From: Halobellus clavatus
GTDB taxonomy: Archaea; Halobacteriota; Halobacteria; Halobacteriales; Haloferacaceae
Assembly (NCBI RefSeq): GCF_900107195.1
Contig: NZ_FNPB01000011.1
Span: 1-64,000 of the forward strand
Length of the DNA stretch: 64,000 nucleotides
Direction: 5' to 3'
Position 1 is the stretch's first letter. Every line of letters begins with the position of its first letter. The position numbers and the translations under genes were made by a program. Below, piece by piece: positions 17,102-54,153 of this stretch. The notes beneath the pieces are model-generated. The model worked only from the letters and a program-made list of their open reading frames with translations. It was not told where the DNA came from and searched no databases.

Positions 17102-17144
17102 GTTACCCCACAGAGGGGCATAGCCATAACTATTGTGGGGTAAA
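17102..17144. promoter_or_regulatory. GTTACCCCAC-N21-GTGGGGTAA inverted repeat, copy 1
   Basis: Left arm 17102-17112 and right arm 17134-17144 are separated by 21 bp, between two divergent genes. The plus-strand ATG is 60 bp beyond the right arm. It is one of four copies in the window and is interpreted as an operator. Confidence 0.65.
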
Positions 17145-17204
17145 TTGTGATGAGCACTCTCCAGTTGCTTTCTCGCCCCCCACAGGAGGTGGAGGTAACT
17201 ACGG

Positions 17205-18086
17205 ATGTCTACCCACCAGATCACCCCGGCGGACGAGCACCTCCCACCGCTCGAACTTCCCCCAGGCGCGCTCGACGCATCGCACCCTGACTATGAGAAC
17301 ACCACGGGTAATGACCCACCGGAGATCGAACCGATCGAGCACCGCATCCGTCTCGACATCATCGAGGCTGGCGGGCTCTTATCTCACGAGACCCACCCTC
17401 CCACCCCGCTCGCCCGGCAGTACATCCAGAAAACGCTCGTCGATACTTACGAAAGCGAACGCCGGTTCTTTCCCTCCTACGACCGCCTCGATAACTTCCT
17501 GGGCGAGGCTCCTGCCTTCCTCACAGGTGAGCTCGAACCACATTACCGCGAGCTCGAGCAGATTCGCGCCGATCGCCGAAAGTGGTACACGGAGCTCATC
17601 CCGAAAAATCTCGACACTATTCAAGGAACAGCCGACTCCCTCCTCCCCCTCCACGCAAACACTTTCCACGGAGTCGTCATCGTCGACGCGAACACCGATC
17701 CCATCGAGTATGCCGACGAACACGACCTCGATGTAGACGACATCATTCGGGAAGCCCAGCTCGATAACCACATCCTGCCCGCCGAATACGGGGTCACTCT
17801 CCCGGCGCCACTTCTCGTCGGGGAATTCGCCAGCGGGTCCACTTACGCATTCCTTCCCTGGTCAGACGCTGTCGTCTGTGGCTGTCCCTACAAGCAGACG
17901 AACAAGTGGGCGGTGATGTGCAAGCACGAGCTCGCGGCTGCGTCCCGTCTCGCCAACGCTTACGAAGGAGACGTCGATGCCAAGTACGTTCTCCCGATCG
18001 ACGTCGGTGTTGACATCCCGCAGCGCGCCCGCCGGTTCGTCAGCCCGACCGTCGCAGCCACTCACACGCCCCGGAAGCAACGGTGA
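17205..18086 (+). CDS. SWIM zinc-finger protein
   Basis: A 293-residue protein with a SWIM signature CGCPYKQTNKWAVMCKH (CxCx(n)CxH) at about residues 226-242. SWIM domains bind zinc and mediate DNA or protein contacts, often beside recombinases or helicases. The N-terminus is Pro-rich and the middle helical. The ATG follows GGAGGTGGAGG, a strong ribosome binding site within a possible leader hairpin. It heads an operon of at least three genes controlled from repeat copy 1. Confidence 0.8.
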   Translation: MSTHQITPADEHLPPLELPPGALDASHPDYENTTGNDPPEIEPIEHRIRLDIIEAGGLLSHETHPPTPLARQYIQKTLVDTYESERRFFPSYDRLDNFLGEAPAFLTGELEPHYRELEQIRADRRKWYTELIPKNLDTIQGTADSLLPLHANTFHGVVIVDANTDPIEYADEHDLDVDDIIREAQLDNHILPAEYGVTLPAPLLVGEFASGSTYAFLPWSDAVVCGCPYKQTNKWAVMCKHELAAASRLANAYEGDVDAKYVLPIDVGVDIPQRARRFVSPTVAATHTPRKQR

Positions 18087-18091
18087 TCACG

Positions 18092-18445
18092 ATGACGCCT
18101 TCCATCACAGACCCGGGGAGCCACCCCCAGCTGCAGTGGCTCATTCGCGGGTCGCCCGCGATTACGCTCACTGAAGCTCTCCACAACGCCATCCCTGTCG
18201 AGGTCCTCGACAACACCATTGTCGACGCTGACGCCTACTATCACGTCGCGACAGACACCATCATCGTCGTCCAATTCGATACGGTCCAAACCGTCCTCGA
18301 ACGGGACGGTGCTCCTCTCCGCTGCCCACACGACAACGACCCGGCTTCTTGTCCGTCGTGTGCTACTCAAGGAGACACGACCGATTGCGATTCACTCGAT
18401 AGCACCGACCACCATCCACACGATCCGTCACCAGCCTGTTCGTGA
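18092..18445 (+). CDS. Hypothetical protein with a C-terminal CxxC cluster
   Basis: A 117-residue protein. ATG 18092 is chosen because GGTGATC, complementary to the 16S rRNA tail, lies just upstream; the GTG at 18083 overlaps that signal and the previous stop. The N-terminal two thirds form an α/β domain (VEVLDNTIVDADAYYHVATDTIIVVQF). Residues after about 77 carry CPHD and CPSC, possibly one zinc site. Confidence 0.65.
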   Translation: MTPSITDPGSHPQLQWLIRGSPAITLTEALHNAIPVEVLDNTIVDADAYYHVATDTIIVVQFDTVQTVLERDGAPLRCPHDNDPASCPSCATQGDTTDCDSLDSTDHHPHDPSPACS

Positions 18446-18512
18446 GTGCCGATGTCCTGCGGACTTCACACGTTCGACGAGAGCCTACCCAAGCACTCCA
18501 CTCCTCCTGACT

Positions 18513-19184
18513 ATGCAGATCGACACAGCCACCCTCACACAGATCCAGGAGTATCGCGTCACCGCCGACCCAATCATTGCAAGCGACCACGCCACCGGCA
18601 CCGCCAACCTCAAGAACGGTATCCACGAGGAACGCCGCACACTCGTCGAGGATACATCAGTCGGTGAACGTGTGCCCGTCGCGACGTGGGGTGAGCTCAC
18701 AGCGCTCTGTTCGACAGCCTCCCTAACGCACGCCGCGTTCACGAACGCGAGGTTCGTCCGCCTCTATCAATACGCCCTCCGAGAATACCTCGACAGGATA
18801 GCTAGCGACGACCAGAACGCGAACGCGATACTTCCCTCGAACTTCCCGGTCTTGCCGGCGGACGATGAGACGCACGAGTACGCCCGTGAACTCCGCGAGG
18901 CGCTCAAGCGCGACCGCGACCGCTGGTTCACCGAGCACGTCGACGAACTCGACATCGAAACCGACGGCGTCCCGACGGCATTCTGGCTCCACGATTCCAC
19001 GACGACAGCAGCAGAACTTCTCGCCGAGTGGTACGCGGTCGGTGAAGTCTCCGACCAGCTTCTCCAGAGTCTCCCCAGTCTCCCCGGACAGACTCCCGGA
19101 GAGAACCCTGAGACAGCCGAGAGTGCAGCCACCCAGACAACCGACGAGAGTGACCCGGCACAGGCCGGTCTCGATATGTTCTGA
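18513..19184 (+). CDS. Hypothetical helical protein
   Basis: A 223-residue protein starting at ATG 18513; upstream in-frame sequence overlaps the preceding gene and has poor codon use. The middle is largely helical (FVRLYQYALREYLDRIA, YARELREALKRDRDRWFTEHVDEL). The C-terminus is a Thr/Glu-rich acidic tail. It is the likely third gene of the SWIM operon. The function is not recognised. Confidence 0.65.
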   Translation: MQIDTATLTQIQEYRVTADPIIASDHATGTANLKNGIHEERRTLVEDTSVGERVPVATWGELTALCSTASLTHAAFTNARFVRLYQYALREYLDRIASDDQNANAILPSNFPVLPADDETHEYARELREALKRDRDRWFTEHVDELDIETDGVPTAFWLHDSTTTAAELLAEWYAVGEVSDQLLQSLPSLPGQTPGENPETAESAATQTTDESDPAQAGLDMF

Positions 19185-19268
19185 CTGACTTTGTGAAATC
19201 GCCAAAGTCTGACAATCTTTCCACCGCCATCGATACATACAGAAAGTACACTTACTGCTCAATTCAGA

Positions 19269-19673
19269 TTATGATCGGACGGCCACGAGGCCCGCGAGAA
19301 CAAGTAATGCACCAGTGGCGATTGCGAACAGCGGCGTGCTGAGACTGGAGGGCGAATCAATGGTGAGCAAGAGCGCAGTGCCCGAACAGCTTAACGCGAT
19401 GAGTGCACTGAGGATCTCGATATGGCGTGGCTTAGCAGTCCCGGTGCGGACACTGCTATACAGGGCGTGTCCAAGCACAGCGACTGGAAAGACGCCTGCG
19501 ACCACGAGCGCGAAATGGATTGCAATCACGCCTGCCGTGTCGAGTACCGGAATGCTGTTACTGACAAGCGTCCCGAGAGCGTACAATCCGAGTAAGCCAA
19601 CCAAGAGGACTGCGAGTAAGCGTTCGACACGATTGGCCGACAGACGCGGGGAGTGAGACACTATCTTACCCAT
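19269..19673 (-). CDS. Four-helix membrane protein
   Basis: A 134-residue protein with four predicted membrane helices and a short Arg-containing N-terminus (LSANRVERLLAVLLVGLLGLY). It resembles small haloarchaeal membrane proteins with no known role. It converges with the plus-strand operon to its left. Confidence 0.65.
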   Translation of the reverse strand: MGKIVSHSPRLSANRVERLLAVLLVGLLGLYALGTLVSNSIPVLDTAGVIAIHFALVVAGVFPVAVLGHALYSSVRTGTAKPRHIEILSALIALSCSGTALLLTIDSPSSLSTPLFAIATGALLVLAGLVAVRS

Positions 19674-19775
19674 GCAAGAAAACCTCGTTCAGAAAGTCTT
19701 AAAGTCTCCGACAAGAAGCCCGGGGAGGCAACACTAACTGATTAGTTCGCACAGCGGAGTCTACAATATGGTTAC

Positions 19776-20183
19776 TCATTCGAGCAGACGTTCACGGTCG
19801 GCCGTGGTGCGTTCCATGTCTTCGGTTTCGAGGAGCTGGTCAAGGCGTCGCTGAAATGCTTCGTCGCTGAGCTCGCCCTCCGCGTATCGTCGTCGGAGTG
19901 TTTCAATTGCAGTCTCGCTTGCCTGGTTTGGTTCCCGTTCGTTTTGTGGCCCTGCCGTGGGTGCTGCGTTCGCCTGTCGAACGACGCCACGTGTTAACTG
20001 CCCGGCGACAACGAGGGTGACGACACTAACGAGGAGAAACAGGAGTCCTGTTGCGGCGTTACCAGTCAGTCCGATGAGTCCCAATACCAATGCTGGAACG
20101 CCAATCAGCGAGGCGATGATTGCGACAGCGGTTCGACCGGCAGGACTCTCCGGGGCATACTGGTGGACCAATTCATACATCAT
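19776..20183 (-). CDS. SHOCT-domain membrane protein
   Basis: A 135-residue protein with two membrane helices (about residues 18-65) and a C-terminal SHOCT motif (ETLRRRYAEGELSDEAFQRRLDQLLE), a short oligomerisation domain common at the ends of haloarchaeal membrane proteins. The biological role is unknown. It lies about 100 bp upstream of the other membrane-protein gene on the same strand. Confidence 0.85.
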   Translation of the reverse strand: MMYELVHQYAPESPAGRTAVAIIASLIGVPALVLGLIGLTGNAATGLLFLLVSVVTLVVAGQLTRGVVRQANAAPTAGPQNEREPNQASETAIETLRRRYAEGELSDEAFQRRLDQLLETEDMERTTADRERLLE

Positions 20184-20235
20184 CTACATCGTAGCAATCC
20201 CACTACAAAAGCGCCCGGAAGCCGGACAATCCACT

Positions 20236-20272
20236 GCACCACTTTGAAGAGTTAAGCACTCTAGAGTGGTGC
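20236..20272. repeat. Inverted repeat GCACCACT-N21-AGTGGTGC
   Basis: Arms at 20236-20243 and 20265-20272 are separated by 21 bp, upstream of the SHOCT gene. The geometry matches the GTTACCCCAC elements, but the arm sequence differs. Confidence 0.4.
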
Positions 20273-20420
20273 GGGTCGGCTAGAAGCTCGCACAGGCTGA
20301 GAGCAGTTGGGTAGTCACTTTCCTTGGAGGCCATTACACCACAATCGGTCAATACAGAGGATCTATCTGATGTTTCAATTATGTAAAAATACTTGTGAGT
20401 AAATCACTATACAGCAGACA

Positions 20421-20588
20421 ATGGTACAAGATCGAGTCATTCTCCGGCTGAATCTCGTTATCTGGCTTCTATTCGTTATGATAGCAATGGACCTATGGCC
20501 AGTTCTCCGGATGACGAGAGGTATCATTGTTATCATAGCCGTGACGCTGGCCGCGGTTCTCTATTGGTTACTTTACAAATTAGAGTAG
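20421..20588 (+). CDS. Small two-helix membrane protein (55 aa)
   Basis: ATG 20421 to TAG 20588 encodes 55 residues with two hydrophobic stretches (LNLVIWLLFVMIAMDLW and GIIVIIAVTLAAVLYWLLY) joined by a short Arg-containing loop. A TATA-like TAAAAATAC lies about 30 bp upstream, consistent with a leaderless message. It resembles the small membrane proteins often seen in haloarchaea and has no assigned function. Confidence 0.6.
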   Translation: MVQDRVILRLNLVIWLLFVMIAMDLWPVLRMTRGIIVIIAVTLAAVLYWLLYKLE

Positions 20589-20902
20589 GATTCCACGATT
20601 GCTCAAGTCGCAGGGACTATGTAACGGCTGTTTCACCGTGAATAGTATCTAATTAATAGTATTTCAACAGAGGCTTCTAACCCGTCTCCGTTCGAGGATG
20701 CCCATAGCAGTCACGGTGTACCGTGAGCGACCCCGCCGGGCCAGTAATCGTCGCCAACGCCAAGCGGATGTCCCGTACATCACCGTCGACGGCCTCTAAA
20801 CGGTCATTCTCACCGGCCTCCTCTAAGAGACAGCCGTTGAAGCCAGCTCTCGGAACGCAGTCGGGCGATTTTTTTCCTCCAACTGAAATCGAGAGTGGTT
20901 TC
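20589..20902. other. Gap with possible decayed coding sequence
   Basis: No intact gene is seen. The GC-rich stretch from about 20690 to 20860 looks like old coding DNA. A run of seven T bases lies at about 20869-20876, upstream of the 41-residue coding frame that follows. Confidence 0.4.
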
Positions 20903-21028
20903 ATGCCTGCACAGTCACCCACGACGACCGAGAGGGCGTACTCTGCGTTCGTGCGTCGGTACGGCTTCCCCGGCCCGGAACGTCAAACCATCCCCCAGCC
21001 CCGCTCAACTAGGAGGGCAAGTCGATGA
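20903..21028 (+). CDS. 41-residue peptide, translationally coupled to the next gene
   Basis: The peptide starts MPAQSPTTTERAYSAF and overlaps the next start as ATGA. The next gene's AGGAGG ribosome site lies inside it. Its RRYGFPGPERQTI resembles QRFGFPGPGAHKY of the PP-loop protein at 36668, so it may be a leftover of such a gene that now serves as a leader. Confidence 0.45.
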   Translation: MPAQSPTTTERAYSAFVRRYGFPGPERQTIPQPRSTRRASR

Positions 21029-21876
21029 GTATCTCGCCGGCGCAGCCATCGGTCGAGTCCGCCAACGAGCCCGCCTTCCCTACGGGTGAGCGGAGTCAGC
21101 TCAGTGACCTATCGGACATCTACGAACACGGGGCGCTCGCTCTCATCGGGTGTGGGGCCGCAAAGCGCGACCCAACCAACGATGACGACATCCGTGTGGC
21201 CTCGGTCCGCCCCGACGAGTCCTTCGGCCCCGACTGGAGGGACGAAACCGGGCCCGCGTGGAAGGCTCGCGATCTCTACACCTCGAACTATTTCGGCCTG
21301 AAGAAGCAGTTCGCCAGACGCATCACCGGCGTCGAGGGCGGCCGAGACGGCGCCAGCCCATGGGCGATTCTCTCCGCCAAACACCACGTCCTCATGCCCT
21401 GGGAGGACGTCAAGTACTACAACAAGTCGATCGACGAACTAGGTGGCGACGAAACGAATCCCGACCACCGCGACGACAACCCCTACGGCCTCCGGCGGCC
21501 GGACGGCCGCGAAATCGTCACCGAACTCGACCAGTGGACGCGGCTCGTCGCCTTCGGCCTGGTGAAGTGGATTGCGCCCTTCCGCGCTGTCCGCGACACT
21601 CCGGAAACGACGAACGCGCAGACGCTCTTCATCCTCGCCGGCCAAGACTACATCAACCCACTCCGCGACCACGGCGTCTTCAAGTACGGGATCTCGAGGA
21701 TGACCGGCAATCCCAACCAGCTCACCGAATTCCCCCTCGAACCCCGCTTCCTCTTCGAGGAGATCAACAATGACGGCATCGGCGACCAGATGAGCTGGCT
21801 TTCGGACGCCGTCAACCGACTCGACGAGCCCGCAGCGCCCACAGATCAGGTGACCTTCGAAGGGTGGTCGCCATGA
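21025..21876 (+). CDS. DUF6884-like protein (YaaA-like pattern)
   Basis: A 283-residue protein with the family pattern ALIGCGAAKRD near residue 40, KARDLYTSNYFGLKK near 81, WAILSAKHHVLMPWEDVKYYN near 113 and LFILAGQDYINPLRD near 203. DUF6884/YaaA-like proteins occur on phages and plasmids and in some DNA-modification clusters. The Gly-Cys and Ser-Ala-Lys-His positions look like an active site. It is coupled by ATGA to the upstream peptide and overlaps the next gene. The reaction is unknown. Confidence 0.6.
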   Translation: MSISPAQPSVESANEPAFPTGERSQLSDLSDIYEHGALALIGCGAAKRDPTNDDDIRVASVRPDESFGPDWRDETGPAWKARDLYTSNYFGLKKQFARRITGVEGGRDGASPWAILSAKHHVLMPWEDVKYYNKSIDELGGDETNPDHRDDNPYGLRRPDGREIVTELDQWTRLVAFGLVKWIAPFRAVRDTPETTNAQTLFILAGQDYINPLRDHGVFKYGISRMTGNPNQLTEFPLEPRFLFEEINNDGIGDQMSWLSDAVNRLDEPAAPTDQVTFEGWSP

Positions 21877-22406
21877 TGGAGAACGCTATTCTTGCAGCCT
21901 ACACCTCTACCGAGACCGAACCGGAAGACACGGCTTCACCATCGCTCGAAGAACGCCTCCTTGCGGCCGTCTCAACGACGCTCGGCCTCCGCCTCATTCC
22001 TGGAACTGGTGAGCCCTTCTACCTCAAGAACCGAGGAAAGGAACGTTATCTCTTCCGTGACGACCACGCCCACTGGTACATCCTCCAGCCGTCAGCAAAG
22101 GCTTCCGAGGAGGCCTATGTTCGCTGGGTATTCCTCCCGGAGGATAAGCCCACGTACCTCGCTCGCACCGGCCTCGAGCATCACACTGTCGTCGGTTACG
22201 ACTATGTCCGCCGATTCGAGGCTCCTGACCCAGTCGAGACTACAGTCACTGCGAAGGAACTCACGGTTAGATGGGGCGAAACCACCTATGAGTGCGGTGG
22301 GTGCGGCGAAGACTTCGACGAATCACTCGATCACGCACTCCACTGCTGGGAGGAACATCCGTGGATACCGACGCCTGGCCAGATTCGTCTCGAACGGGAG
22401 AGGTAA
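21873..22406 (+). CDS. Hypothetical protein with a C-terminal C2H2-like finger
   Basis: A 177-residue protein. ATG 21873 overlaps the previous stop by 4 bp and is preferred to GTG 21864. The C-terminus has CGGCGEDFDESLDHALHCWEEH, a Cys2-His/Cys-His arrangement that could bind one zinc ion. The N-terminal domain is α/β (FYLKNRGKERYLFRDDHAHWYIL). It lies directly before the cytosine methyltransferase and is likely in its operon. Confidence 0.65.
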   Translation: MMENAILAAYTSTETEPEDTASPSLEERLLAAVSTTLGLRLIPGTGEPFYLKNRGKERYLFRDDHAHWYILQPSAKASEEAYVRWVFLPEDKPTYLARTGLEHHTVVGYDYVRRFEAPDPVETTVTAKELTVRWGETTYECGGCGEDFDESLDHALHCWEEHPWIPTPGQIRLERER

Positions 22407-22409
22407 CCG

Positions 22410-23144
22410 ATGTCAGTCATCTCAGATGGCACTATTGGCGACCAAGCGCTCGAAGATCTCTGGGATCGCCCACTCGCACTCGATCTCTTCGCCGGCGCCG
22501 GGGGCGCCTGCCGAGGCCTCCAGACGTACGGCCATCACGGGCTCGGCTGGGAAGTTATCGGCATCGACGGTGACCCGCGGAAGGCTCGTTACTACCCTGG
22601 CGTCTTCGTCAAGCACGATCTGACCGAGGGACTTCCCTAGTTCGTCGACGACTACGCCGACCAGATCGAAGTTGTCTGGGCCTCTGCCCCCTGCACGTTC
22701 GCGACGGATCTTCAATTCGCACGTTCCGGAGAAAACCTCATCCCGCTCGCCCGCGACCTCTGTCAGGAGATCGATCCGCCGGTGTGGATACTCGAGAACG
22801 TGCCGGGTGCTCGCGATCATCTTGAGAATCCCGTCCAGTTCTGCGGGTCAGCGTTCGGTCTTGGCGTCCGCAAACACCGGCTCTTCGAGACGTCGTTCTT
22901 CGCGCACGGGACGCCGTGTTCGCACCCCGAGAAGTTCGACTACGCAATCGGCGACCGCGAAGCCCCGGTGACCGGCTACCGGCAGGCCCACGGTCTCTCC
23001 CCGCGTGCCCCGTTGCCCGCGAAAGCCCTCCGTGAAGTCATCCCACTCGCCTACATCCACGAACTCCTCGATCAATACACCCACTACGCCCCACACACCT
23101 ACGAAACCACTCACTCGGCCGACCACACTCCAAAATGCCAGTAA
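22410..23144 (+). pseudogene. C5-cytosine DNA methyltransferase interrupted by one amber codon
   Basis: The single frame from ATG 22410 to TAA 23144 encodes 244 codons with one internal TAG at 22638. Motif I (DLFAGAGGACRGL, residues 25-37), GIDGDP (motif II), ASAPCT with the catalytic Pro-Cys (about 91-96), ENVPGA (motif VI) and GVRKHRLFE (motif VIII-like) are all present. The rest is compact, with little room for a target-recognition domain. The TAG separates motifs I-II from the catalytic Cys, so the gene yields a full enzyme only if read through. TAG ends normal genes elsewhere in the window, so mutation or sequencing error is likelier than recoding. Confidence 0.75.
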
Positions 23145-23913: not shown

Positions 23914-23925
23914 TTCTATCGATAG

Positions 23926-25802: not shown

Positions 25803-27200
25803 TCAGGCGAACCGTTTCAGCGAGGATTTAGAGATATCTCCGAATCGAGAATCCTCCATTACGATATCAAGGATAGCCTCAGGATTGTGGAGTAACCGAT
25901 GAGAGTTGTGGCGGCCACCGCCTTTTCCCATATTCACCTCTTTAGTTTCGATTACCTGGCTGAGCTGCATCTCATCGAGGATATCCCGGAAGCGCCGTAT
26001 CCCGATCGTGTCCATATCTATCGCGTTAGTGATCTGCTGGTACGCATCGTAGAGTTCACCTGTGATGATGTAATCGTCACGCGAGTAAAGTGATTTAGCA
26101 GCGATCGAGAGACAAGCTGCTTTCATTTGAGTGGGGGTTCCCTGGAGGAAGTCGCGGAATCTATCCTTTTCAAGTGCGTCTTGGGCTCTTCGCACGTGGT
26201 CTTCCTCAACTACGTCTGCTCCCTCACGATCGGCTAGCTCTCCTGCGGTCCTGAACAATCGCATTGCTTTCCGTGCATCACCGTGTTCCTGGGCTGAGAA
26301 AGCCGCGACAAGAGGAATAACCTCATCAGTAAGAACACCATCACGAAATGCGTCATCACGCCCGCGAAGAATCTCTTGAATCTGATTTGCATTATATGGG
26401 TCGAAATTGAGTTCTTGAGTCTGGAAGGCACTCTTGGTGCGTGGGTTCAACTCGTCGAAGAAGTTGATTTGATTGCTTATTGCGATGATCCCGATTTGAC
26501 ACGACGTATCATTCGATTCGACTGCCTTCGCGAGACTCATCAGAACGTGGTCGCTCTTGAGAAGGTCGACTTCGTCAAGAATAATGATAGCCGAGTCGTA
26601 GTGATCGAGAATCTGCCAGAGCCGTTTGTAGAACTTGTCTTTCGGTAGCCCGGTATCGGGCATTTTCACGATGTCCTCATCCTCGTCATAGATATCCTCG
26701 TCGTTCAGCTGTTGCCCGATTGTCGAGATGACTTGGACTTCAGTTGAGGATTTCGAGCAGTCTAGATACGTATGGCCTATTCGGATATCATCAACTGCCG
26801 CATTGACAGCTCGACGAGTGACGTATCGGGAGACAAGAGATTTTCCCGTTCCTGTTTTCCCAGTAATTGAGATGTGATTTGGGGCACCACCATAGACAGC
26901 GTCGTTCAGACAGCTACTGATAGTGGAAATATAATCGTCACGTCCGACAATTCGATCGCCATCAGGTACCCAACCGACACGGACCATCTCCTTATTTTGG
27001 AAAACCCCCTTCCGTTTAGAAAAGAGCGGGTCGTCAACCTTGAATTGTTGACCGTCCCCGTCGCTTGATGGCGGTTTTCCATTCTCGTCTGGACTCCCCT
27101 TCGGTTCCGATGTTTGGACACGAGATCGGTCGTCTTGACCGTCTGAAGACGTAGAATCCAAATCTCGACTTTCATCGGAAGTCGAGGTGCCGTTTGACAT
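25803..27200 (-). CDS. Orc1/Cdc6-family replication initiator
   Basis: A 465-residue AAA+ protein that binds origin repeats and starts replication. An acidic disordered N-terminus (about 1-55) is followed by Walker A GKTGTGKS (114-121), Walker B IIILDEVD (205-212), sensor-1-like IGIIAISNQINF, the FDPYNANQIQEIL lid segment and a C-terminal winged helix. It lies at the edge of an array of origin recognition boxes. A correctly placed TATA box gives a leaderless start at 27200. Box-like sequences inside its first codons and in its promoter suggest that it represses itself. Confidence 0.95.
   Translation of the reverse strand: MSNGTSTSDESRDLDSTSSDGQDDRSRVQTSEPKGSPDENGKPPSSDGDGQQFKVDDPLFSKRKGVFQNKEMVRVGWVPDGDRIVGRDDYISTISSCLNDAVYGGAPNHISITGKTGTGKSLVSRYVTRRAVNAAVDDIRIGHTYLDCSKSSTEVQVISTIGQQLNDEDIYDEDEDIVKMPDTGLPKDKFYKRLWQILDHYDSAIIILDEVDLLKSDHVLMSLAKAVESNDTSCQIGIIAISNQINFFDELNPRTKSAFQTQELNFDPYNANQIQEILRGRDDAFRDGVLTDEVIPLVAAFSAQEHGDARKAMRLFRTAGELADREGADVVEEDHVRRAQDALEKDRFRDFLQGTPTQMKAACLSIAAKSLYSRDDYIITGELYDAYQQITNAIDMDTIGIRRFRDILDEMQLSQVIETKEVNMGKGGGRHNSHRLLHNPEAILDIVMEDSRFGDISKSSLKRFA
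27095..27108 (-). repeat. Origin-box-like half site inside the orc1 gene
   Basis: CCCCTTCGGTTCCG is identical to the core of the box at 27327-27350 and lies within codons for the disordered N-terminus. It may be chance or a binding site. Confidence 0.35.
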
Positions 27201-31319: not shown

Positions 31320-31362
31320 GTTACCCCACGAAATGGGCGATACCATCTCTGCGTGGGGTAAC
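31320..31362. promoter_or_regulatory. GTTACCCCACG-N21-CGTGGGGTAAC inverted repeat, copy 2
   Basis: Perfect 11-bp arms at 31320-31330 and 31352-31362. The right arm ends 57 bp before ATG 31420. Confidence 0.7.
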
Positions 31363-31419: not shown

Positions 31420-31629
31420 ATGGGTAGTCTTTCTCGACACCGCGCACAGCAACGCTTCCGCAAGGCACTCGACCAGCGGCTCCAGGATACGTCGAGTCCA
31501 ACCGAGACGTATTCAGCCTACGAGGAAGCCATCGAGGAGTTCATCGGATTGGCCCTCAACGCCGACGAACTCAACAAGGCAGCTTGCCGCGTCGCAACCG
31601 ATCCCGACGCAATAGACTTCCCCGACTAA
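31420..31629 (+). CDS. Small helical protein
   Basis: A 69-residue protein (MGSLSRHRAQQRFRKAL...) with a basic N-terminal helix and an acidic C-terminal helix. ATG 31420 is placed after a GGTGGAGG ribosome site; the earlier in-frame ATG at 31333 falls inside the inverted repeat. It heads the operon controlled by repeat copy 2. Confidence 0.65.
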   Translation: MGSLSRHRAQQRFRKALDQRLQDTSSPTETYSAYEEAIEEFIGLALNADELNKAACRVATDPDAIDFPD

Positions 31630-37781: not shown

Positions 37782-38864
37782 ATGGCTTCTAGTTCCCTTC
37801 AGGTAGCCTCGGCTGCGGCTGAGCCGCAACGTCCGTTCACGCCACCGCACGCGGCACCCGAGCCGGACACCCTCGAGTCGTCCCGTCGCCCCGCATATAT
37901 CGGCTTCCTCTTCAGAGCGCCGTTCGCCACAGACGCCTACAAACTTGGCTTCACCACGGGCATCCGTGAGGACTATCGCCTCCAGATCGACTCCTACCGG
38001 AATGTCGACCTCCCGGTGGTTATGCTCGACAACGAGTTCCGCGACCCCGATCCCGACCGATACGTCGACCGGTTTCGCGAGTACGAACCCGATGTGGCCG
38101 TCATCGGTGACGCTGAGACGCCACAGGACGCCTGCGAGTACACCCAGCTCGCTCGCGACCTCCGCGAAGAGTTCCCGTCGACAACGTACATTATCGTCCC
38201 GAAGTGTCGCGAGGCAATCGAGATCATCGACGACGACCTCGTCCTCGGGTATCCGCTCGGCTATTCATCCCTCCACGCAGACGACTACAGCGACCCAGTG
38301 GACTGGCGTGACCGTCATATTCATCTCCTCGGCGGGAGTTCCCCCATCCAGTACGAGGCGCTCCAAGACCTCACGCAGCCAACACTCACGAATGCGCCGC
38401 CGGCGAACATCGTCGGAATGGACTGGAACGGACCAGCCAAGGTCGCCTACCTCGGAGAGTACTGGAGTCGCGATGGCTGGCAATCCGCCGACCATCTCGG
38501 GATTCGTGAGACTGTCCGTCGGAGTCTCCGTGAGATGCGTGCCTTCTGGCAGGAGCGCGATCTCTGGCCGGAGACGACCCCCTGTGACGTCTACGGAGAA
38601 GCGGTTCAGGAGCCACAGGACCCCGTCTGGGCAGCGAGCGGGCGAAATATCTACGAAAAGCCGAGTCCCTTCGCTCCTGACGATGCACCGGTCTACGATC
38701 CGGAGAATCCCGACTACGACCCTCTCGAGGATGCGATCGTGGTCGAGTATGAGAACGGATGGACGCTCGCGTACCGCAACGAGTCGGAACGGAAGCGGAT
38801 CGAGTATCAAGAGGGACTCACGCGTATCAACGGTGATAAGCCTCCTCGCGTTACCCCACGATAA
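37782..38864 (+). CDS. Hypothetical protein, possibly TGT/DpdA-like
   Basis: A 360-residue soluble protein conserved in style with proteins of haloviruses and plasmids. An α/β pattern (YIGFLFRAPFATDAYKLGFTTGIREDY, LPVVMLDNEFRD, YIIVPKCREAIEII, HIHLLGGSSPIQYEALQDL) resembles the TIM barrel of tRNA-guanine transglycosylase-like enzymes, including the DpdA group that inserts deazaguanines into DNA. The late LGGSSPIQYEAL is the closest match. I could not locate the full catalytic Asp pair, so the assignment is weak. Its last codons form the left arm of inverted repeat copy 3. Confidence 0.5.
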   Translation: MASSSLQVASAAAEPQRPFTPPHAAPEPDTLESSRRPAYIGFLFRAPFATDAYKLGFTTGIREDYRLQIDSYRNVDLPVVMLDNEFRDPDPDRYVDRFREYEPDVAVIGDAETPQDACEYTQLARDLREEFPSTTYIIVPKCREAIEIIDDDLVLGYPLGYSSLHADDYSDPVDWRDRHIHLLGGSSPIQYEALQDLTQPTLTNAPPANIVGMDWNGPAKVAYLGEYWSRDGWQSADHLGIRETVRRSLREMRAFWQERDLWPETTPCDVYGEAVQEPQDPVWAASGRNIYEKPSPFAPDDAPVYDPENPDYDPLEDAIVVEYENGWTLAYRNESERKRIEYQEGLTRINGDKPPRVTPR

Positions 38865-38892
38865 GGATCCACAACGGATTTCGTGGGGTAAC
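38850..38892. promoter_or_regulatory. GTTACCCCACG-N21-CGTGGGGTAAC inverted repeat, copy 3
   Basis: Perfect 11-bp arms at 38850-38860 and 38882-38892. The left arm overlaps the end of the preceding gene. The right arm ends about 84 bp before ATG 38977. Confidence 0.7.
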
Positions 38893-38976: not shown

Positions 38977-39252
38977 ATGTCAACTGCTGCCTCGACTATC
39001 GACCCAGACACGATCGCACAAGCCGGTGACTCGCCTGTAACTATCCGCGACAAGGTCCTCCGCACGCTCTACCACACTGTTCCGGAGATCGAACTTGAAG
39101 ATGTCCTCGAACTCCAGGTACTCATCGACCCGCCGGCGAACGAGGATTCACATTCGAGGCAAGCGCAAGCCGTCCTCACAGCCGTCCAGGAGGAAGTAGA
39201 GACGTGGCCTGACCCGCCGACGATCCACACCCCACCTTCGGCCTATGAGTAA
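38977..39252 (+). CDS. Small hypothetical protein (91 aa)
   Basis: ATG 38977 begins MSTAASTIDPDTIAQAG; an upstream GTG at 38968 is less likely. The protein is acidic and helical (IRDKVLRTLYHTVPEIELEDVLEL). Its stop overlaps the next start by 8 bp. It heads the operon behind repeat copy 3. Confidence 0.6.
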   Translation: MSTAASTIDPDTIAQAGDSPVTIRDKVLRTLYHTVPEIELEDVLELQVLIDPPANEDSHSRQAQAVLTAVQEEVETWPDPPTIHTPPSAYE

Positions 39253-44149: not shown

Positions 44150-44980
44150 ATGTGCAAAGTCGACGATCTCATCGCAGAGTATGGATTAACAGCCCCCGGG
44201 TCTGACTATGACTCTGTAGATGACTACCTCGCGAAACGGTGGACTGGAACTGACGGCCGCACTTCAGAAGGATATAAAAAACTCACAGACTGGTTCAACA
44301 AACGAGTTCTCAAGTCGATATATGAAAAACACGGGAGATCCACTGTTAGCATCCATCTTGACCGAGAATACGATGTTATTATAAACGAAGATAACATCCA
44401 ACGCGCCGAGCTCGCGGCCGACCTCGAGGGCGACGGGATGGACATCGACGAACTCAAGAAAACGCTCATCTCTCACGGCACAATCCGAAATCACCTCAAA
44501 AACTGTCTCGAAGTCGAAAAAGACACTCAGTCCACAACCAATTCCACTACTACGACTCGAGAGAAAGCCATCACGTCGGCGAAACGAATGGCTGCCTCAA
44601 AAACAGAAAACATCCTTCCAGAACTGGCAAAAGACGGCGTTGTTCCTTTTGCAGACCAAGCCACCGTCGACGTCGAAATCAGACTACAATGCCCCAAATG
44701 CGACACACGGGTCCCCATCGAAGATGCAATCAATCGGGGGTACGTCTGTAACGACCATATGACGGATCCAAACAATACAGACCCACCTAACAATCCAACT
44801 CCAGATTCGCCGGAGAATACCGAATCTGACGAAGACGATTCACACCATCAGTCAGATACAACGATGAATTCTATGCCCTCATCACAATCCTCTCTCCTGC
44901 TCTCTCTACTGGCCCTCGGAGTCACTTCGTTCTCGTCCCAATCGCCTATGCTAATAGATAGTATGCTCAACACCACGTAA
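44150..44980 (+). CDS. rdfA: Rod-determining factor RdfA-like protein
   Basis: A 276-residue protein with the RdfA pattern: CKVDDLIAEYGL at the start, YLAKRWTGTDGRTSEGYKKLTDWFNKRVLK, then a middle helical part and CPKCDTRVPIEDAINRGYVC, a zinc knuckle. RdfA in Haloferax promotes rod-shaped cells and is encoded with an SMC-like Sph protein, as here. This copy has an extra Asp/Ser-rich tail ending in a hydrophobic stretch (SSLLLSLLALGVTSF) that may contact the membrane. It lies 2 bp before sph. Confidence 0.85.
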   Translation: MCKVDDLIAEYGLTAPGSDYDSVDDYLAKRWTGTDGRTSEGYKKLTDWFNKRVLKSIYEKHGRSTVSIHLDREYDVIINEDNIQRAELAADLEGDGMDIDELKKTLISHGTIRNHLKNCLEVEKDTQSTTNSTTTTREKAITSAKRMAASKTENILPELAKDGVVPFADQATVDVEIRLQCPKCDTRVPIEDAINRGYVCNDHMTDPNNTDPPNNPTPDSPENTESDEDDSHHQSDTTMNSMPSSQSSLLLSLLALGVTSFSSQSPMLIDSMLNTT

Positions 44981-44982
44981 CC

Positions 44983-46773
44983 ATGACCTGGCATCTAGAA
45001 ATCGAAAATATTGCAGGCATCCATCGAGGGGAGGCTACGATCGAATCCGGTGTGAACGCTGTCCGAGCGAGTAACTGGCAAGGAAAATCGAGCTTCCTAA
45101 CCGCAATTGAAACAGCCTTCGGGACTGAAACAAGCCTCACCGAAGGCCAAGATCACGGTCATGTTGAGCTCGAAATCGACGACACCACCTACGCTGTCGA
45201 CCTTGATCGTACCAACGGCACGATTACACAATCCGGCGATCCATACCTCACCGATGATGTCGATCGCGTCTGTGCTGACCTCTTCGCGTTCCTCGATGAA
45301 ACCAACGAGGTCCGCCAAGCCGTCCGTGTGGGTGAAAACCTTGAGGACCTCCTCACTCGTCCCCTCGATTTCGAGAACATCGACGAGCAGATTGCCGACC
45401 TTAAAGCCGAACAGAAACAGGTCGAGGCCGAACTCGACCGAGCCCAAAACGCTGCTAACCGCCTCCCGCGCCTCCAAGAGAGGGTCACTTCGCTCGAATC
45501 CCAACTCGAAGACCTTCAGGAAGAGTGGGACGAACTCGACAACGAAGCTTCTTCAGATAGTGACGCTCGAGACGAGCTGAGTAACCTCCGCGCCCAGCTC
45601 GAGAAGACCAAGACAGACATCAACCGGTACGAATCAACCGCAGATCGCGTCGGGGATGAACTTGAAGCAAAAAAAGAGGAACTTGAGACGTTGGATGTCC
45701 CAACACACGAGGAGCTCGAAGACGACCTCGAGGATCTCCAATCTGACCTCCACGAAATCGAACGGGATAAAGAACTCCTCCAGTCGATTTATGAGGTAAA
45801 TCAGCGCATTCTCGAAGAAGACCGTCTCTCGCTTCTCACAGACGTCTCTCACGATATGCTCTCCGACCAGCTTGCCTGCTGGATCTGTGGCAACGACACC
45901 TCTCGTGAAGAGGTCGAGGCACAGTTAGACAGTATCTCTGACCGTCTTAATTCACTCCGCGACCAAGAGTCGACTCTCCGCAACAAGGTAAACGAGCTTC
46001 AGGAGAAACAACAGACTGTACGGGATGCGGAGCGGAAAGAACGCGACCTCCGCGACCGCATCGGAGAGCTTGAATCTCAGCTGGATGACGCACAGACGAA
46101 TCTTGAATCGGCCAGAGAACGAAAAGCCTCCCTCGAAGCACAGATTGACGAACTCGAAGATCAGGTCAGCGAGACGCAAGACCACGCGACTGACCTCCAG
46201 AGTGAGATCAAATACACGGAAGCTGAGCTTGAAGACGCTCGTGACGAACTTGAGACAGTCAAGTCGGAAGCCTCGCAGCGTGATGTCCTCGAAGAGGAAC
46301 TCGAATCTCTCCGCTCCGAGGTCGAGGACCTTCGAACACGCAAGGAGCGTGTGAAGCGAAACACTCGGGACGCATTCGATTCGGCGCTCTCCGACATTCT
46401 CACGAGATTCGACGTCGGGTTCGAGACAGCACGCCTCACCGACAACTTCGACCTCATCGTCGCACGTGGAGGCCGCGAAGCCAGCCTTGACGCTCTCAGT
46501 GAAGGCGAGCGGGAACTCCTCGGCATCATCGCTGCTCTTGCCGGCCACGAAGCATTCGATGTCGCTGACCGGGTTCCCGTTATGCTGCTCGACGGGCATA
46601 CCGGTCTCGACGATACCAACATCCACCATCTCGTCGATTACCTCTCTGAACGCGTCGATGTCCTCGTCCTCTCCGCCTTCCCCGAGTACGACGCCTTCGA
46701 GGGTCACGAAGTCACTCCAACCAACTGGGAGACCATCTCCTACGGGGACGATGTTGAGGAAGTCGTAGGATAG
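44983..46773 (+). CDS. sph: Archaea-specific SMC-related protein Sph
   Basis: A 596-residue ATPase of the SMC/Rad50 class. The N-terminal head has a Walker A variant ASNWQGKSSF (about residues 29-38). A long antiparallel coiled coil is split at about residue 300 by CWICGND, a zinc-hook-like turn. The C-terminal head has the ABC signature LSEGERELLG and Walker B PVMLLDGHTGLDD. Sph proteins of halophiles pair with RdfA and influence cell shape and DNA handling. It is co-transcribed with rdfA and followed by a GC palindrome. Confidence 0.9.
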   Translation: MTWHLEIENIAGIHRGEATIESGVNAVRASNWQGKSSFLTAIETAFGTETSLTEGQDHGHVELEIDDTTYAVDLDRTNGTITQSGDPYLTDDVDRVCADLFAFLDETNEVRQAVRVGENLEDLLTRPLDFENIDEQIADLKAEQKQVEAELDRAQNAANRLPRLQERVTSLESQLEDLQEEWDELDNEASSDSDARDELSNLRAQLEKTKTDINRYESTADRVGDELEAKKEELETLDVPTHEELEDDLEDLQSDLHEIERDKELLQSIYEVNQRILEEDRLSLLTDVSHDMLSDQLACWICGNDTSREEVEAQLDSISDRLNSLRDQESTLRNKVNELQEKQQTVRDAERKERDLRDRIGELESQLDDAQTNLESARERKASLEAQIDELEDQVSETQDHATDLQSEIKYTEAELEDARDELETVKSEASQRDVLEEELESLRSEVEDLRTRKERVKRNTRDAFDSALSDILTRFDVGFETARLTDNFDLIVARGGREASLDALSEGERELLGIIAALAGHEAFDVADRVPVMLLDGHTGLDDTNIHHLVDYLSERVDVLVLSAFPEYDAFEGHEVTPTNWETISYGDDVEEVVG

Positions 46774-49165: not shown

Positions 49166-49447
49166 CCATCCCTCGCAATATTCTCTCAAGATTGACGACA
49201 CCCACTTCTTCGTCATTCAGCCGGCCTTGCGAACTTCAGTTGACGATGAGATCGTAGCGCGACTCACTGTCCTCGGTCAATGGCTATATCCGATTGGTTC
49301 GGGGATAGAAGTTATAGGTATTGGACAACGTATTCTGACACAGCGATTCACATGGAGCGCTCTCCAACCACCCTTAGTAGGTGGCTCTACCGTGTCGGTC
49401 GCCGTCTTCGCCACCGAAAGTCTAGGGACTCAACAGAAACCTCCGCA

Positions 49448-51352
49448 ATGGAACCGTCGACGTCATCCAGCATCCTCTCGGCCAAAATTCAAGACCGTCT
49501 CTTGGGTATCGCACCTACAGCTCAACAAACCGTTTCCTCCACTGCGGCGATGGCTGCCCTCCCGATCATTCCGCTATTTAATCCCCTTGATCCAGAGGAT
49601 TGGTTCGAGGGGATCGTCAACACGCTCGCGACCGGCTTGACGAACGTCCTGGGCGAGGTTTTCGTGGGAATGGTCCAGGAGTTTCTCGTTATCGACCCGT
49701 TGTACTACCAGGAAGGAGCGAATGCAACTTTTATACAGAATCTCCAGTACTCGCTGATTCTCTTTCCGACCGTCATCGTCCTCGGAACGATCGCGGCACT
49801 CTTTTCGGAAGCCCCAGAGGGCTCCTATTTACGGCAGGGAATCCGTATTGTTAAAGCCCTCTTCGCACTCGCTCTCATCCGTCCATTCCTCCACGTCGCT
49901 GTCGTCTTCACGAATAGCGTTACGAAGCTCGTGATGCCCGAGACTTACGCGGTCTCCCTCGCCGGCCCCGCCCTCAACAACGCCATCGGCGATTTGATGG
50001 GCTCGGCTATCGCCGCTGTGCTCGTTTACCTCGCCGCCGGTACAATCTCTCTCATCGCTATCGCTCTCGTTGTGATGATCCTCTTCCTCCGCATCTTTAT
50101 GATCCATCTCGTCTACACCGCTTTCCCGATCCTGCTTGTTATGTGGTACACCGACTGGGGACCACTCCGGTACGCGAACGACGTCGCTATGTTTGTCTTC
50201 AAGGTCACAGCGTATCTCCTCCTCGCGGGGCCGCTCATCGCGCTCGCTCTTCAGACCGGCTGTAGTATGTCCGCCCCGGACATCTGTGTGGCTAACGCGA
50301 GCGGGGCTCACGGCCCGGAAGCACTCACTGCCGGAATTGACCCATCGCAGAATAAGCTCGTCCTTTGGAAGCGGTTCCTCGGCTGGCTTTCCGGCCTCGG
50401 CCTCGCCGGTTTCGTCGGGATACAGGCCCTGTCGATGGGTGGGAGTTCCGCCGGTCATCTTCTAGGGTTTAGTGGCCTGAGTGCGTTACGCGGCGGTGGC
50501 AGCGGTAGTCCGTCTTCGTCCGGAGGTAGTGGTGGTGGAGGAGGTGGCGGTGGACCGACTCCGTCCGGTGGCGGTGGCGCCGGACAGCACACCCTCCGAA
50601 ACTTCGGCGGCGGTAGCGGAACCGGCCCAAAGGCGTATGGAGCGACTGGCTCAGCAAAACCCGAATTCCACCCCCGACAGGCAGCTAGTTCGGCGAAAAC
50701 TAATCTGAAACAACGTGTCTCATCGGCACGGGATACTGCACGGAGTAACGCGCAGCGCGCCTACCGTGGCGTAAAATCACGGAAAGAATGGATGAGTCAG
50801 GCTACGTGGGGACAGGGCGCTCGAGCTGGGGCCGGATTAGCTGGCGGTGGCGTGGCGCTCGGTGCTCGCGAGGCAAAAGCGGGTGTGAGCCACGTGAAAA
50901 ATAATCTCAACGAGCCGATTGCGAATTGGCCCGGCCACGTCTATCGGCGGGCGAAGAACGGCAATTGGAACCCACCGAATGACGATCTGGGTGCAAGTAC
51001 GGAAAGCGAAGTCACAGCGGATAATGAAGTGTTGGCACTACCTGAGGGGGATCCGCCTCTCCCAGAGGGTGAGACTCTGACCCCAGAGTATGAAGACAGA
51101 GCACTCGATCCCAAGGAAGCTCAAGCGGTTGCTGGCGGGTCCGACATCGAAGACGCGAATCCGCATTCGGTCAACGAATCAGTCCAAGCTTGGTACGACC
51201 GCGTGAAGGCAAAGGACCAGCAAAAAGTGGAGGCGATGCGCCCTGACCTCATCAATCGAGATGTCTCCCCGCCTTCCTCCTCACCATCGGAGGAACAAAT
51301 CCAGGAGTCCGTCGACGACTACGTCGATAGAACCCGCAACACAGACTCATAA
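49448..51352 (+). CDS. Polytopic membrane protein, VirB6/TrbL-like
   Basis: A 634-residue protein with ATG 49448 as likely start; the open frame extends to 49280 but with codons unusual for this genome. About seven membrane helices lie in residues 45-330. They are followed by a Gly/Ser-rich linker (about 348-390) and a long basic, then acidic, soluble tail. This layout is that of the channel protein VirB6/TrbL of type IV secretion systems. It probably forms the inner-membrane pore for DNA export. It lies in line with the VirB4-like ATPase. Confidence 0.7.
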   Translation: MEPSTSSSILSAKIQDRLLGIAPTAQQTVSSTAAMAALPIIPLFNPLDPEDWFEGIVNTLATGLTNVLGEVFVGMVQEFLVIDPLYYQEGANATFIQNLQYSLILFPTVIVLGTIAALFSEAPEGSYLRQGIRIVKALFALALIRPFLHVAVVFTNSVTKLVMPETYAVSLAGPALNNAIGDLMGSAIAAVLVYLAAGTISLIAIALVVMILFLRIFMIHLVYTAFPILLVMWYTDWGPLRYANDVAMFVFKVTAYLLLAGPLIALALQTGCSMSAPDICVANASGAHGPEALTAGIDPSQNKLVLWKRFLGWLSGLGLAGFVGIQALSMGGSSAGHLLGFSGLSALRGGGSGSPSSSGGSGGGGGGGGPTPSGGGGAGQHTLRNFGGGSGTGPKAYGATGSAKPEFHPRQAASSAKTNLKQRVSSARDTARSNAQRAYRGVKSRKEWMSQATWGQGARAGAGLAGGGVALGAREAKAGVSHVKNNLNEPIANWPGHVYRRAKNGNWNPPNDDLGASTESEVTADNEVLALPEGDPPLPEGETLTPEYEDRALDPKEAQAVAGGSDIEDANPHSVNESVQAWYDRVKAKDQQKVEAMRPDLINRDVSPPSSSPSEEQIQESVDDYVDRTRNTDS

Positions 51353-51507
51353 CGATTCAACCTGAATCCCTCCACTGGTACCGAGTCCCCTCCAGGACCA
51401 CATTAGAACCAGTAATTGACCCTTCTATGCTGTTGCTCGAGGGGCGTGCTTCCCGGCTGATATTTTAAATAGCAGAACGCGGTAGATTAGTACAGAAACA
51501 CAAACAC

Positions 51508-52686
51508 ATGGGTTCCGAAACGACCACCGCCCGTCGCGTGCTGGCGACTCTCCCTAGGCACCCACTCTCGATCTCGGATTTCATCAGCCTCCAAGCACCC
51601 GATAGTTTCGAATCCACCTCCACCTTGGACGGAACCGACATTCACACCCGAGTCGACAACTCCAACATTCAAAATCTGGGCGGCGTCGTCGCTATCGGTG
51701 ATGACTGGGTCGACCGTGAGGGCATCGTTGGCTTCCGCTTCATCGCCGGAGACACTTGGTTCGGTGTCGGCTTCGAACCAGAGACTGGCTGGACCATCCT
51801 CACCGAGGATTCCATCGACGAGAAGTTCTCGCAGGCTATCGATGATCGTATCGCGACTTGGGCAACCACCTTCTACGAGGAGGAAACCGTCCGGCCGTCG
51901 TTCTATGATACTTTCGCGGCCGCCTGTGTGTCCCAGCTTCCCCCGCGCCCGCTCCAGCACGGTGAACTCGGGGAGATACTCACTCCTGGAGGGATTTACC
52001 AGGAGTCCTTCGTTGAGGTGGTTCCCGTTCCCATCATCCAGATCGAACACACCGACAAGGTCATCGCCTTTTTGATGAAGGTTACTGCCCCTGATCGGTC
52101 CGGTCACGTCGTTGAGTATGGGTACCGCCTCCACACCGACGGCGTCTGGCGCAAGGCATGGGCTGACATCATCCCCGGCGAAGAGACCGAGGAAGTCGGT
52201 CTTCGTGATCGGCCAGTCGCCACTCTCATCGATGACGCCAATCAGGATTACTTGAATGAGATCGACTTACTCGTGGAGCCTCCGACCGATCACATCCAGA
52301 TCGAGGTCTACATCGATGTGATGTCACCAGAGCCAGCACCCGGTGGTATGTGGACTGCGGCATCTGACTGGTTCCCATCCATCGAGTACGGTGCTCCTAT
52401 CGTGGGCCTAAATACTGATGAGAATCCGGGCGAATTGACCGTCGTCGGCTACCTCGAGGGAACGGAGACCGCCGTTTATGTCGGTCTCAACCGCCAGGAT
52501 GACACGTGGGAAGAGATCATTTCTTTCGACCGCCCCGCCGACAAACGACAGGACACGGAAGTTGTCAATGCTATCGACGGCTGGCTTCAGAGCCAGTACG
52601 GCGCTCTCGTTGGGCCGTCGCACCACCCGCTCATCCAGCTCACCGACTGGGAGTCGAAGGTTCCCGACCTTTTTGCTTCCAAGTAA
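51508..52686 (+). CDS. Hypothetical soluble protein of the conjugation module
   Basis: A 392-residue acidic protein with two similar β-rich halves (GVVAIGDDWVDREGIVGFRF; NTDENPGELTVVGYLEGTETAVYVG). It has no membrane helix. A TATA box (TATTTTAAATAG, 51461-51472) gives it its own promoter. The function is unknown; its position suggests a cytoplasmic accessory or regulator of the secretion apparatus. Confidence 0.7.
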   Translation: MGSETTTARRVLATLPRHPLSISDFISLQAPDSFESTSTLDGTDIHTRVDNSNIQNLGGVVAIGDDWVDREGIVGFRFIAGDTWFGVGFEPETGWTILTEDSIDEKFSQAIDDRIATWATTFYEEETVRPSFYDTFAAACVSQLPPRPLQHGELGEILTPGGIYQESFVEVVPVPIIQIEHTDKVIAFLMKVTAPDRSGHVVEYGYRLHTDGVWRKAWADIIPGEETEEVGLRDRPVATLIDDANQDYLNEIDLLVEPPTDHIQIEVYIDVMSPEPAPGGMWTAASDWFPSIEYGAPIVGLNTDENPGELTVVGYLEGTETAVYVGLNRQDDTWEEIISFDRPADKRQDTEVVNAIDGWLQSQYGALVGPSHHPLIQLTDWESKVPDLFASK

Positions 52687-52754
52687 TCGACCTCGATGTC
52701 AATCGGGGAGAGAATTTTTAGGCATTCACGACACGTATTCACACGAGACGTCCC

Positions 52755-54032
52755 ATGAAACGGTACCCAGTAGCCGGCCAGTTACTCGAGCATCGCCTCT
52801 TCTTCGGACTCAGCGTCAGCGATCTCGAAGTCGGCGTAATCCCACTCGCCGCTATCATCCTTGCGTCCGGTATCAACAACGTCTTCGAGCCCTCGTTCAG
52901 TGGGCTACTTACTATCGGAAGCGGGATTCTCGGCCTCCTCGTCGGCTTGTACGTTCTCTGGCGAACACCTGCCGGTCAGACCCCTCGCGAGTGGCTCTTC
53001 GGGGCTGCAAAACACATCGTGGGCCCGGATCGCTATCTCTGGCAACCCGTCGAACGCGGTCTCGTTTCTGGACAGCACCTTGACGACATCCGTACTCTAC
53101 ATTCTGAGGATTCCGAAACCTCCGACGACAACAGCGATCCGGACCCAGAAACCTCGTCCTCGAGTGGCCCCCAGCAGTCCGCCTCAGATGATAACAGCGG
53201 TCAGCAAATCGTAACTGACGGCGGGCAGATGCACTCTCGCGAACGCCCACAGCGTGACCCGAGCCAGTACTACCACCAGCTCACGCAGGAGGAAACAACA
53301 ACGCAGGCGCAACTAGCTTTCGAGTATGTTCGCGAAGACGGCATTCTAGTCACGGAGAGCGACAACGAGGAACCTGCGTACGTCGGCCTTGTTCACATCA
53401 CCCCGACGAGTTGGCTTTCCCTCGACGATGAAGGACGCCAGTCTACGATCAACGCGTACGCTGACGTTCTCCGTGGAATCTCCTACCCCTTCCAAGTGCT
53501 CGCCCTTCCTCGTGAATTTGATTTGACGACGCACTTCGAGGAGATCGAACGTGCAGCCTACGAGGCCGAGGATCCGCCAGACATTATGCAGCTTGGTCGG
53601 TCGACGTACATCGACTGGCTCAATGAGTCGGTCGGTACCCGGCGAGTCAAAGTTCGTGATTTCTACATCGCCGTTAGGGTCGAGAGTTCGCACGTCCGAG
53701 AACAGTCCTATGGACACTCTACAGACGTTGTTTCGGGATCTCTCTTCCAACGAATCGTCGGCTGTGTCAATTCTGTCACCTCCTCAGTTCGTTCTCGGAT
53801 CGGCTCGAATACCGACGACGACGTCATCGAACGACAGTGTATTTCTGAAGTTAGAAGTCGGCAACACGAGTTTGCCGAAGCACTCCCCAGGACCGGTGTT
53901 CAGACCGAAGTGATGGACGACCGGGCAGACGTTCTGGACGTCCTCTACCGCTACTACAACCACGCTGACTCACCACTCGACGAGTATTCTCCCAAATCCT
54001 ACGCGGAAGTTCTCCCAGCTCGCCGGTCGTAG
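52755..54032 (+). CDS. PrgI/VirB3-like protein with a long cytoplasmic domain
   Basis: A 425-residue protein with two N-terminal membrane helices (about 22-44 and 47-69), the arrangement of PrgI/VirB3 proteins that sit next to VirB4. The sequence VEVGVIPLAAIILASGINNVFEP style and following RTPAGQTPREWLFGAAKHIVG are typical. A disordered acidic linker then leads to a domain (LVHITPTSWLSLDDEGRQSTINAYADVLRGI) like the N-terminal region of VirB4-class ATPases. It is immediately upstream of repeat copy 4 and the ATPase gene. Confidence 0.7.
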   Translation: MKRYPVAGQLLEHRLFFGLSVSDLEVGVIPLAAIILASGINNVFEPSFSGLLTIGSGILGLLVGLYVLWRTPAGQTPREWLFGAAKHIVGPDRYLWQPVERGLVSGQHLDDIRTLHSEDSETSDDNSDPDPETSSSSGPQQSASDDNSGQQIVTDGGQMHSRERPQRDPSQYYHQLTQEETTTQAQLAFEYVREDGILVTESDNEEPAYVGLVHITPTSWLSLDDEGRQSTINAYADVLRGISYPFQVLALPREFDLTTHFEEIERAAYEAEDPPDIMQLGRSTYIDWLNESVGTRRVKVRDFYIAVRVESSHVREQSYGHSTDVVSGSLFQRIVGCVNSVTSSVRSRIGSNTDDDVIERQCISEVRSRQHEFAEALPRTGVQTEVMDDRADVLDVLYRYYNHADSPLDEYSPKSYAEVLPARRS

Positions 54033-54111
54033 TGATTCCCGACCATCTCAGCATTTCTTCCTCCATCTTCTCGACTGTTCCTGCGGCGCTTGAGGTATCA
54101 CACCTGCCAGC

Positions 54112-54153
54112 GTTACCCCACGAGTGAATTATCTCCGCACTTTGTGGGGTAAC
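54112..54153. promoter_or_regulatory. GTTACCCCACG-N20-TGTGGGGTAAC inverted repeat, copy 4
   Basis: Arms at 54112-54122 and 54143-54153, 10 of 11 paired. The right arm ends 99 bp before ATG 54253. The spacer is 20 bp instead of 21. Confidence 0.7.

Follow-up and report, generated by a model that had tools for sequence, protein, structure and literature searches.

In plasmid RK2, the helix-turn-helix proteins KorA and KorB coordinate replication, maintenance and transfer through palindromic operators dispersed on one plasmid. How transfer and upkeep are coordinated on haloarchaeal plasmids is, to our knowledge, largely unknown. In R388, ArdK, KorA and StbA are small plasmid-encoded repressors that control their own promoters together with several dispersed promoters for conjugation and maintenance (PMC3937220); all of them act in negative feedback, which leads to a burst of expression when the plasmid enters a new cell, and the targets of ArdK include ardC (PMC3937220). 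The inverted repeats analyzed here in Halobellus clavatus are similar to the RK2 operators in being palindromic and dispersed on a single plasmid, and the candidate regulator resembles the R388 repressors in being small and plasmid-encoded and, by inference, in repressing its own promoter together with several dispersed ones; in addition, an ArdC-like gene is found among the targets of the repeat in Halomarina. Differences are also evident. The candidate haloarchaeal regulator is unrelated in sequence to the R388 repressors, which are bacterial, as far as profile libraries show, and its putative operator is a 10-22-10 inverted repeat around an archaeal TATA promoter; differently from KorA and KorB, no helix-turn-helix was found in the protein, and within the window (the whole stretch of DNA analyzed, 64,000 nucleotides) no operator copy is present at the Orc1/Cdc6 gene (25803-27200). 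The best reading of the data is a function like that of KorA or ArdK, carried out by an undescribed protein family of haloarchaea.

The contig measures 119.8 kb and the window covers its first 64 kb, in which an Orc1/Cdc6-type replication initiator, encoded on the minus strand, marks the element as a replicon. Re-checking of the coordinates placed four inverted repeats exactly where the earlier note had reported them, at 17102-17144 (copy 1), 31320-31362 (copy 2), 38850-38892 (copy 3) and 54112-54153 (copy 4); these putative operators are not assigned to either strand. They have the form GTTACCCCAC-N22/23-GTGGGGTAAC, with exact arms in copies 2-4 and a single mismatch in the right arm of copy 1 (GTGGGGTAAA). 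The arms had been described as 11 bp long, but the strict palindrome covers only 10 bp, the inner eleventh base (G/A) being asymmetric in copy 4; at most sites outside the window the palindrome is extended by an outer A...T. Counted with 10-bp arms, the spacers of copies 1-4 measure 23, 23, 23 and 22 bp. The distance between half-sites is about 32 bp from centre to centre, close to three helical turns, which places them on one face of the DNA. As previously indicated, the window has no fifth copy, even when up to 5 mismatches are allowed over 22 arm positions; no match was obtained from 100 shuffled versions of the window, and outside the window the 3.75-Mb genome contains no exact match to the pattern. 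A site-specific recombination site was also considered and set aside, because the spacers are unrelated between copies and variable in length.

The gaps from copies 1-4 to the downstream start codons are 60, 57, 84 and 99 bp, in agreement with the range of 57-99 bp given before. Copy 1 is located between two divergent genes. The one on its plus side (17205-18086), preceded by a Shine-Dalgarno-like sequence, had been named SWIM: a CxC...CxH (SWIM-like) pattern can indeed be recognized by eye, but there is no Pfam match. On the other side is the minus-strand gene 16725-17099, whose start at 17099 is separated from the repeat by 2 bp, rather than the 3 bp reported; the TATA-like stretch noticed inside the spacer of copy 1 is present and oriented for this gene. 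Copies 2 and 3 precede operons on the plus strand, beginning with genes for proteins of unknown family: 31420-31629 (69 aa, with GGAGG ahead of the start) and 38977-39252 (91 aa), respectively. The left arm of copy 3 overlaps the final 15 bases of gene 37782-38864. Copy 4 is followed on the plus strand by the gene for a VirB4-like conjugation ATPase (54253-56892; NCBIfam NF045971, E = 8e-43), an identity that is supported, although the score is below the NCBIfam curated cut-off. Elsewhere on the element, a gene for an SMC-related coiled-coil protein (44983-46773) adjoins an RdfA-like gene (44150-44980), so named from the annotation of a collinear plasmid, CP101163.1.

CP101163.1 is a complete circular plasmid of 148.7 kb from Halorarius halobius, with which the contig of the window is collinear site for site. 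The same four sites are found, at unchanged distances from the downstream genes. Taking all four sites together, 79 of the 80 arm positions have the same base on both elements. The spacers have diverged at copies 2 and 3, with only 14/24 and 16/24 identical bases, respectively, and lengths that differ by one, which suggests selection on the arms.

The search of haloarchaeal genomes proposed in the earlier note found the exact motif in 45 of 391 sampled genomes, with up to 12 occurrences per genome, far above chance; a reversed control pattern had no matches in the listed genomes. When 84,980 prokaryotic species genomes were scanned, every record title among the matches listed was haloarchaeal. 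Spacer lengths keep sharply within 20-24 bp, 22 being the most frequent. In line with the earlier proposal, the sites lie between genes and close to promoters: intergenic DNA holds 161 of the 179 distinct sites, as compared to 23% of positions drawn at random from the same loci, and a facing start codon is present within 150 bp at 107 of the 179 (17% for random positions). Genes were called with a simple hexamer-based caller written for the analysis, so that individual distances could be wrong at genes with an ambiguous start. The repeat lies on plasmids and, as anticipated, recurs ahead of the VirB4-like gene in relatives; the wider list of targets includes the VirB4-like ATPase, a ParA-type ATPase, an ArdC-like protein, an ATP-dependent DNA ligase, an HNH endonuclease, DUF6610 and VWA proteins, a set that is typical of plasmid transfer and upkeep. 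A mainly viral motif was ruled out, since only five stretches of the viral collection contain it. These intergenic, plasmid-borne and promoter-proximal sites support the proposal of an element-wide regulon with a protein-binding operator and an undescribed regulator, binding itself being inferred.

For this regulator, which the earlier note had left without a candidate, a strong one is the overlooked divergent gene 16725-17099. Clustering of the genes located after the sites revealed a dominant family of proteins of about 125 aa, accounting for 44 of 161 assignments, while the next family has 8; this enrichment is not built in, since the loci were picked by the DNA motif alone. The member in the window is the product of 16725-17099, a protein of 124 aa with a helical N-terminal half and a C-terminal three-stranded antiparallel sheet, in which the family has an invariant Y-x-YWQWR motif. 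It is the repeated adjacency of the family to the repeat, together with their co-occurrence, that indicates this gene as the candidate. The proximal arm usually ends 1-2 bp short of the start codon of the family gene, or 10-11 bp in one subgroup. At the family sites a TATA-like element, ATTGATAT, occupies a fixed place in the spacer, about 27 bp ahead of the start codon, which is where the TATA box of a leaderless haloarchaeal gene is expected; the start of these genes looks leaderless. The presence of a perfect inverted repeat ahead of start codons is also compatible with a hairpin formed in the leader RNA of the downstream genes, the alternative raised in the earlier note. However, at 33 sites the repeat finishes 1-2 bp ahead of the start with the TATA-like element inside it, which indicates a promoter and not a transcript; moreover, one of the copies is shared by two divergent genes, a hairpin would have a loop of 20-24 unconserved nucleotides, and the window contains no Rfam match (and no tRNA). 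A hairpin can therefore hardly be credited, and the repeat is better read as a protein-binding operator.

No family or named PHROG was found for the 16725-17099 protein in Pfam, NCBIfam and PHROGs, a sequence search of the PDB returned chance-level matches only, and, over 295 genomes of the phylum, the family was not found in any organism other than haloarchaea. The literature search retrieved no haloarchaeal paper with the arm sequences and no description of a haloarchaeal plasmid regulator; subscription papers were mostly beyond reach, and an earlier description is not excluded. The AlphaFold2 model has three helices followed by the C-terminal three-stranded antiparallel sheet (mean pLDDT 79, pTM 0.51), and the sheet is alike when modelled alone (pLDDT 82). 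Foldseek and VIA gave no significant fold match, either with the whole model or with the C-terminal domain alone, and the protein has no recognisable DNA-binding domain and no significant match, in sequence or fold, to a known DNA-binding protein. With the sheet alone, the arm-type DNA-binding domains of P4-like and HPI integrases (3rmp and 3jtz), which are also small three-stranded antiparallel sheets, rank 1 and 3 in Foldseek; nevertheless E is about 1, and they do not appear among the best rows of VIA, which are other proteins with Z of 4.2 or less. The resemblance, resting on a predicted model and not significant, is thus a lead only, and the role of the sheet as the DNA-reading part is inferred. 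In one ortholog (L111:1269-1649) the N-terminal half is near-identical to the window protein and the region of the sheet is different, which suggests that the sheet domain has been swapped between members of the family.

A profile built from the family alignment was run against the same 391 haloarchaeal genomes. Orthologs were defined by E <= 1e-26 (38 genomes) and paralogs by E >= 1e-23, with the cut set post hoc at a visible gap in the scores. The exact motif is present in 34 of the 38 genomes with an ortholog and in 11 of the 353 without (Fisher p = 6e-35); four genomes have an ortholog above threshold and lack the exact motif. The exact GTTACCCCAC operators of the 11 genomes with no detected ortholog are unexplained: they may be relics, assembly gaps or the sites of another binder.

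Paralogs, chosen by protein only, also have inverted repeats of the same architecture just ahead of their start, with arms that are mainly TTAACCAAC...GTTGGTTAA. Such an inverted repeat is found within 100 bp upstream in 28 of 34 distinct paralogs (shuffled mean, 0.28), and 84 of 97 distinct homologs have an in-register operator ahead of their own start. Among these 84, the operators are of type C5C8 (n=48), A5A8 (n=35) and, in a single case, A5C8, the two arms being always of the same type. On the protein tree the operator type changes twice, which is the minimum possible (shuffled mean, 27.8), and the protein with the sole intermediate operator branches between the two groups, even if many forks of the tree are poorly resolved. 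Arm type thus tracks protein subfamily. The groups are completely split by two residues of the third strand, 111 and 113 (W/N versus V, I or T/S); the covariation of these residues with operator type is a lead and not a proof, being confounded with common descent, because the switch from C to A operators occurred about once on the tree. In a small subgroup of paralogs (L188, L191 and L195) the half-sites TACCCCAC...GTGGGATA are separated by only about 10 bp, which is shorter than the usual spacing by roughly one helical turn.

The pattern TTAACCAAC-N20-26-GTTGGTTAA is found in 99 of 145 genomes, with up to 30 occurrences per genome, and 72 of 80 distinct sites of this type are intergenic. Such operators are present in 74 of the 79 genomes with a strong paralog, compared to 14 of the 46 without any homolog (p = 7.5e-14). 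Paralogs occur on 227 haloarchaeal plasmid records, always labelled as hypothetical protein, including pNRC200 of Halobacterium NRC-1. In the latter, ahead of VNG_RS11815 (L292:5850-6000), the proximal half-site GTTGGTTAA is kept and the distal arm is gone, as if through a rearrangement. In the cell from which the window derives, GTTACCCCAC operators and the ortholog are found only on contig C21, while 16 TTAACCAAC operators are distributed on C8, C16, C28 and C29, with none on C21; paralog genes immediately adjoin TTAACCAAC operators on two of these contigs, C16 and C28. These data bear on the possibility that another factor, perhaps encoded by the host, binds the repeats, and that the 125-aa family is merely their commonest target. 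Both the 11 genomes with operators and no ortholog and the absence of a recognisable DNA-binding domain would be in line with such a factor. Conversely, paralogs own different operators whose type follows the protein tree, so that any separate binder would need to have changed along with them, and two operator types are found on different contigs of one cell, each with the matching paralog; we consider a separate binder improbable and retain the family itself as the one that reads the repeats. More tentatively, and with more doubt than confidence, a haloarchaea-wide operator code can be proposed, with one family present in most haloarchaeal genomes and plasmids and subfamilies each reading their own bipartite operator (GTTACCCCAC, TTAACCAAC or the intermediate CTAACCCAC), keeping the networks of co-resident plasmids separate by means of a DNA-reading sheet new to transcription regulators.

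For the window, the repeats are likely operators for the product of 16725-17099, an autoregulated and probably repressing plasmid-wide regulator of an undescribed haloarchaeal family; binding and repression are inferred, with no binding or expression data. The protein would bind the two 10-bp half-sites on one face of the DNA. At its own gene, where the half-sites flank the core promoter, the bound protein would keep TBP/TFB off, closing a negative feedback loop. At the distal operons (SWIM-like, 31420, 38977 and VirB4-like), with sites 57-99 bp ahead of the start, the promoter may be at or near the repeat and be followed by an untranslated leader; this would fit the Shine-Dalgarno-like sequences found at several distal targets, and is a weaker case. 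The predicted outcome is an autoregulated regulon joining conjugation and accessory genes over the plasmid and, by analogy with R388, a burst of expression could also follow the arrival of the plasmid in a new cell. What is expected of a regulator acting from its own element on dispersed operators is observed: the gene is adjacent to copy 1, and likewise in dozens of relatives, and the four operators precede operons both in the window and on CP101163.1. A counterpoint to the model is the spacer range, which is loose for a rigid dimer.

Repression is less certain at the distal targets, because a clear TATA-like signature is limited to the promoter of the regulator and does not extend to the repeats of other targets, and activation there is not excluded. 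The same protein and operators could activate the distal genes from sites at -57 to -99, with repression restricted to its own gene, or could even activate throughout; the position of the repeat, well upstream of non-self targets and without a TATA-like signature in the spacer, would be consistent with this. However, at its own gene the half-sites exactly flank the core promoter, and Shine-Dalgarno-like sequences, strong at 18 of 64 distal targets, fit a promoter at the repeat and not downstream of it, so that activation appears unlikely, if somewhat less so than the other alternatives to a plasmid-wide repressor.

In some Halobacterium relatives (L012, L102, L004 and L011) the regulator gene and the gene for a ParA-type ATPase are divergently oriented, and two operators about 470 bp apart are located one on either side of the regulator gene. 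This arrangement, with operators between and beside the genes, raises the possibility of a mainly partition, centromere-binding protein, for which the repeats would be dispersed centromere-like sites and transcriptional control a by-product; dual-role proteins are known, such as KorB of RK2. Nevertheless, both in the window and in CP101163.1, the four sites extend over 38 kb, all of them ahead of operons and away from the annotated parA, and most sites elsewhere adjoin other genes; the clustering at a parA/parB locus typical of ParB-type systems is not found, adjacency to ParA being limited to some relatives. A primary role in partition is therefore doubtful at best, and an autoregulated plasmid-wide regulator remains the preferred reading.

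A specific protein and a specific site are thus available for immediate testing in a group that is amenable to genetics, and regulons are predicted on hundreds of plasmids, including pNRC200 of the model Halobacterium salinarum. The matched changes in operator and protein constitute a natural series from which the mode of DNA reading may be deduced, and orthogonal pairs within one cell could account for the compatibility of plasmids and could serve as regulatory tools for archaea.
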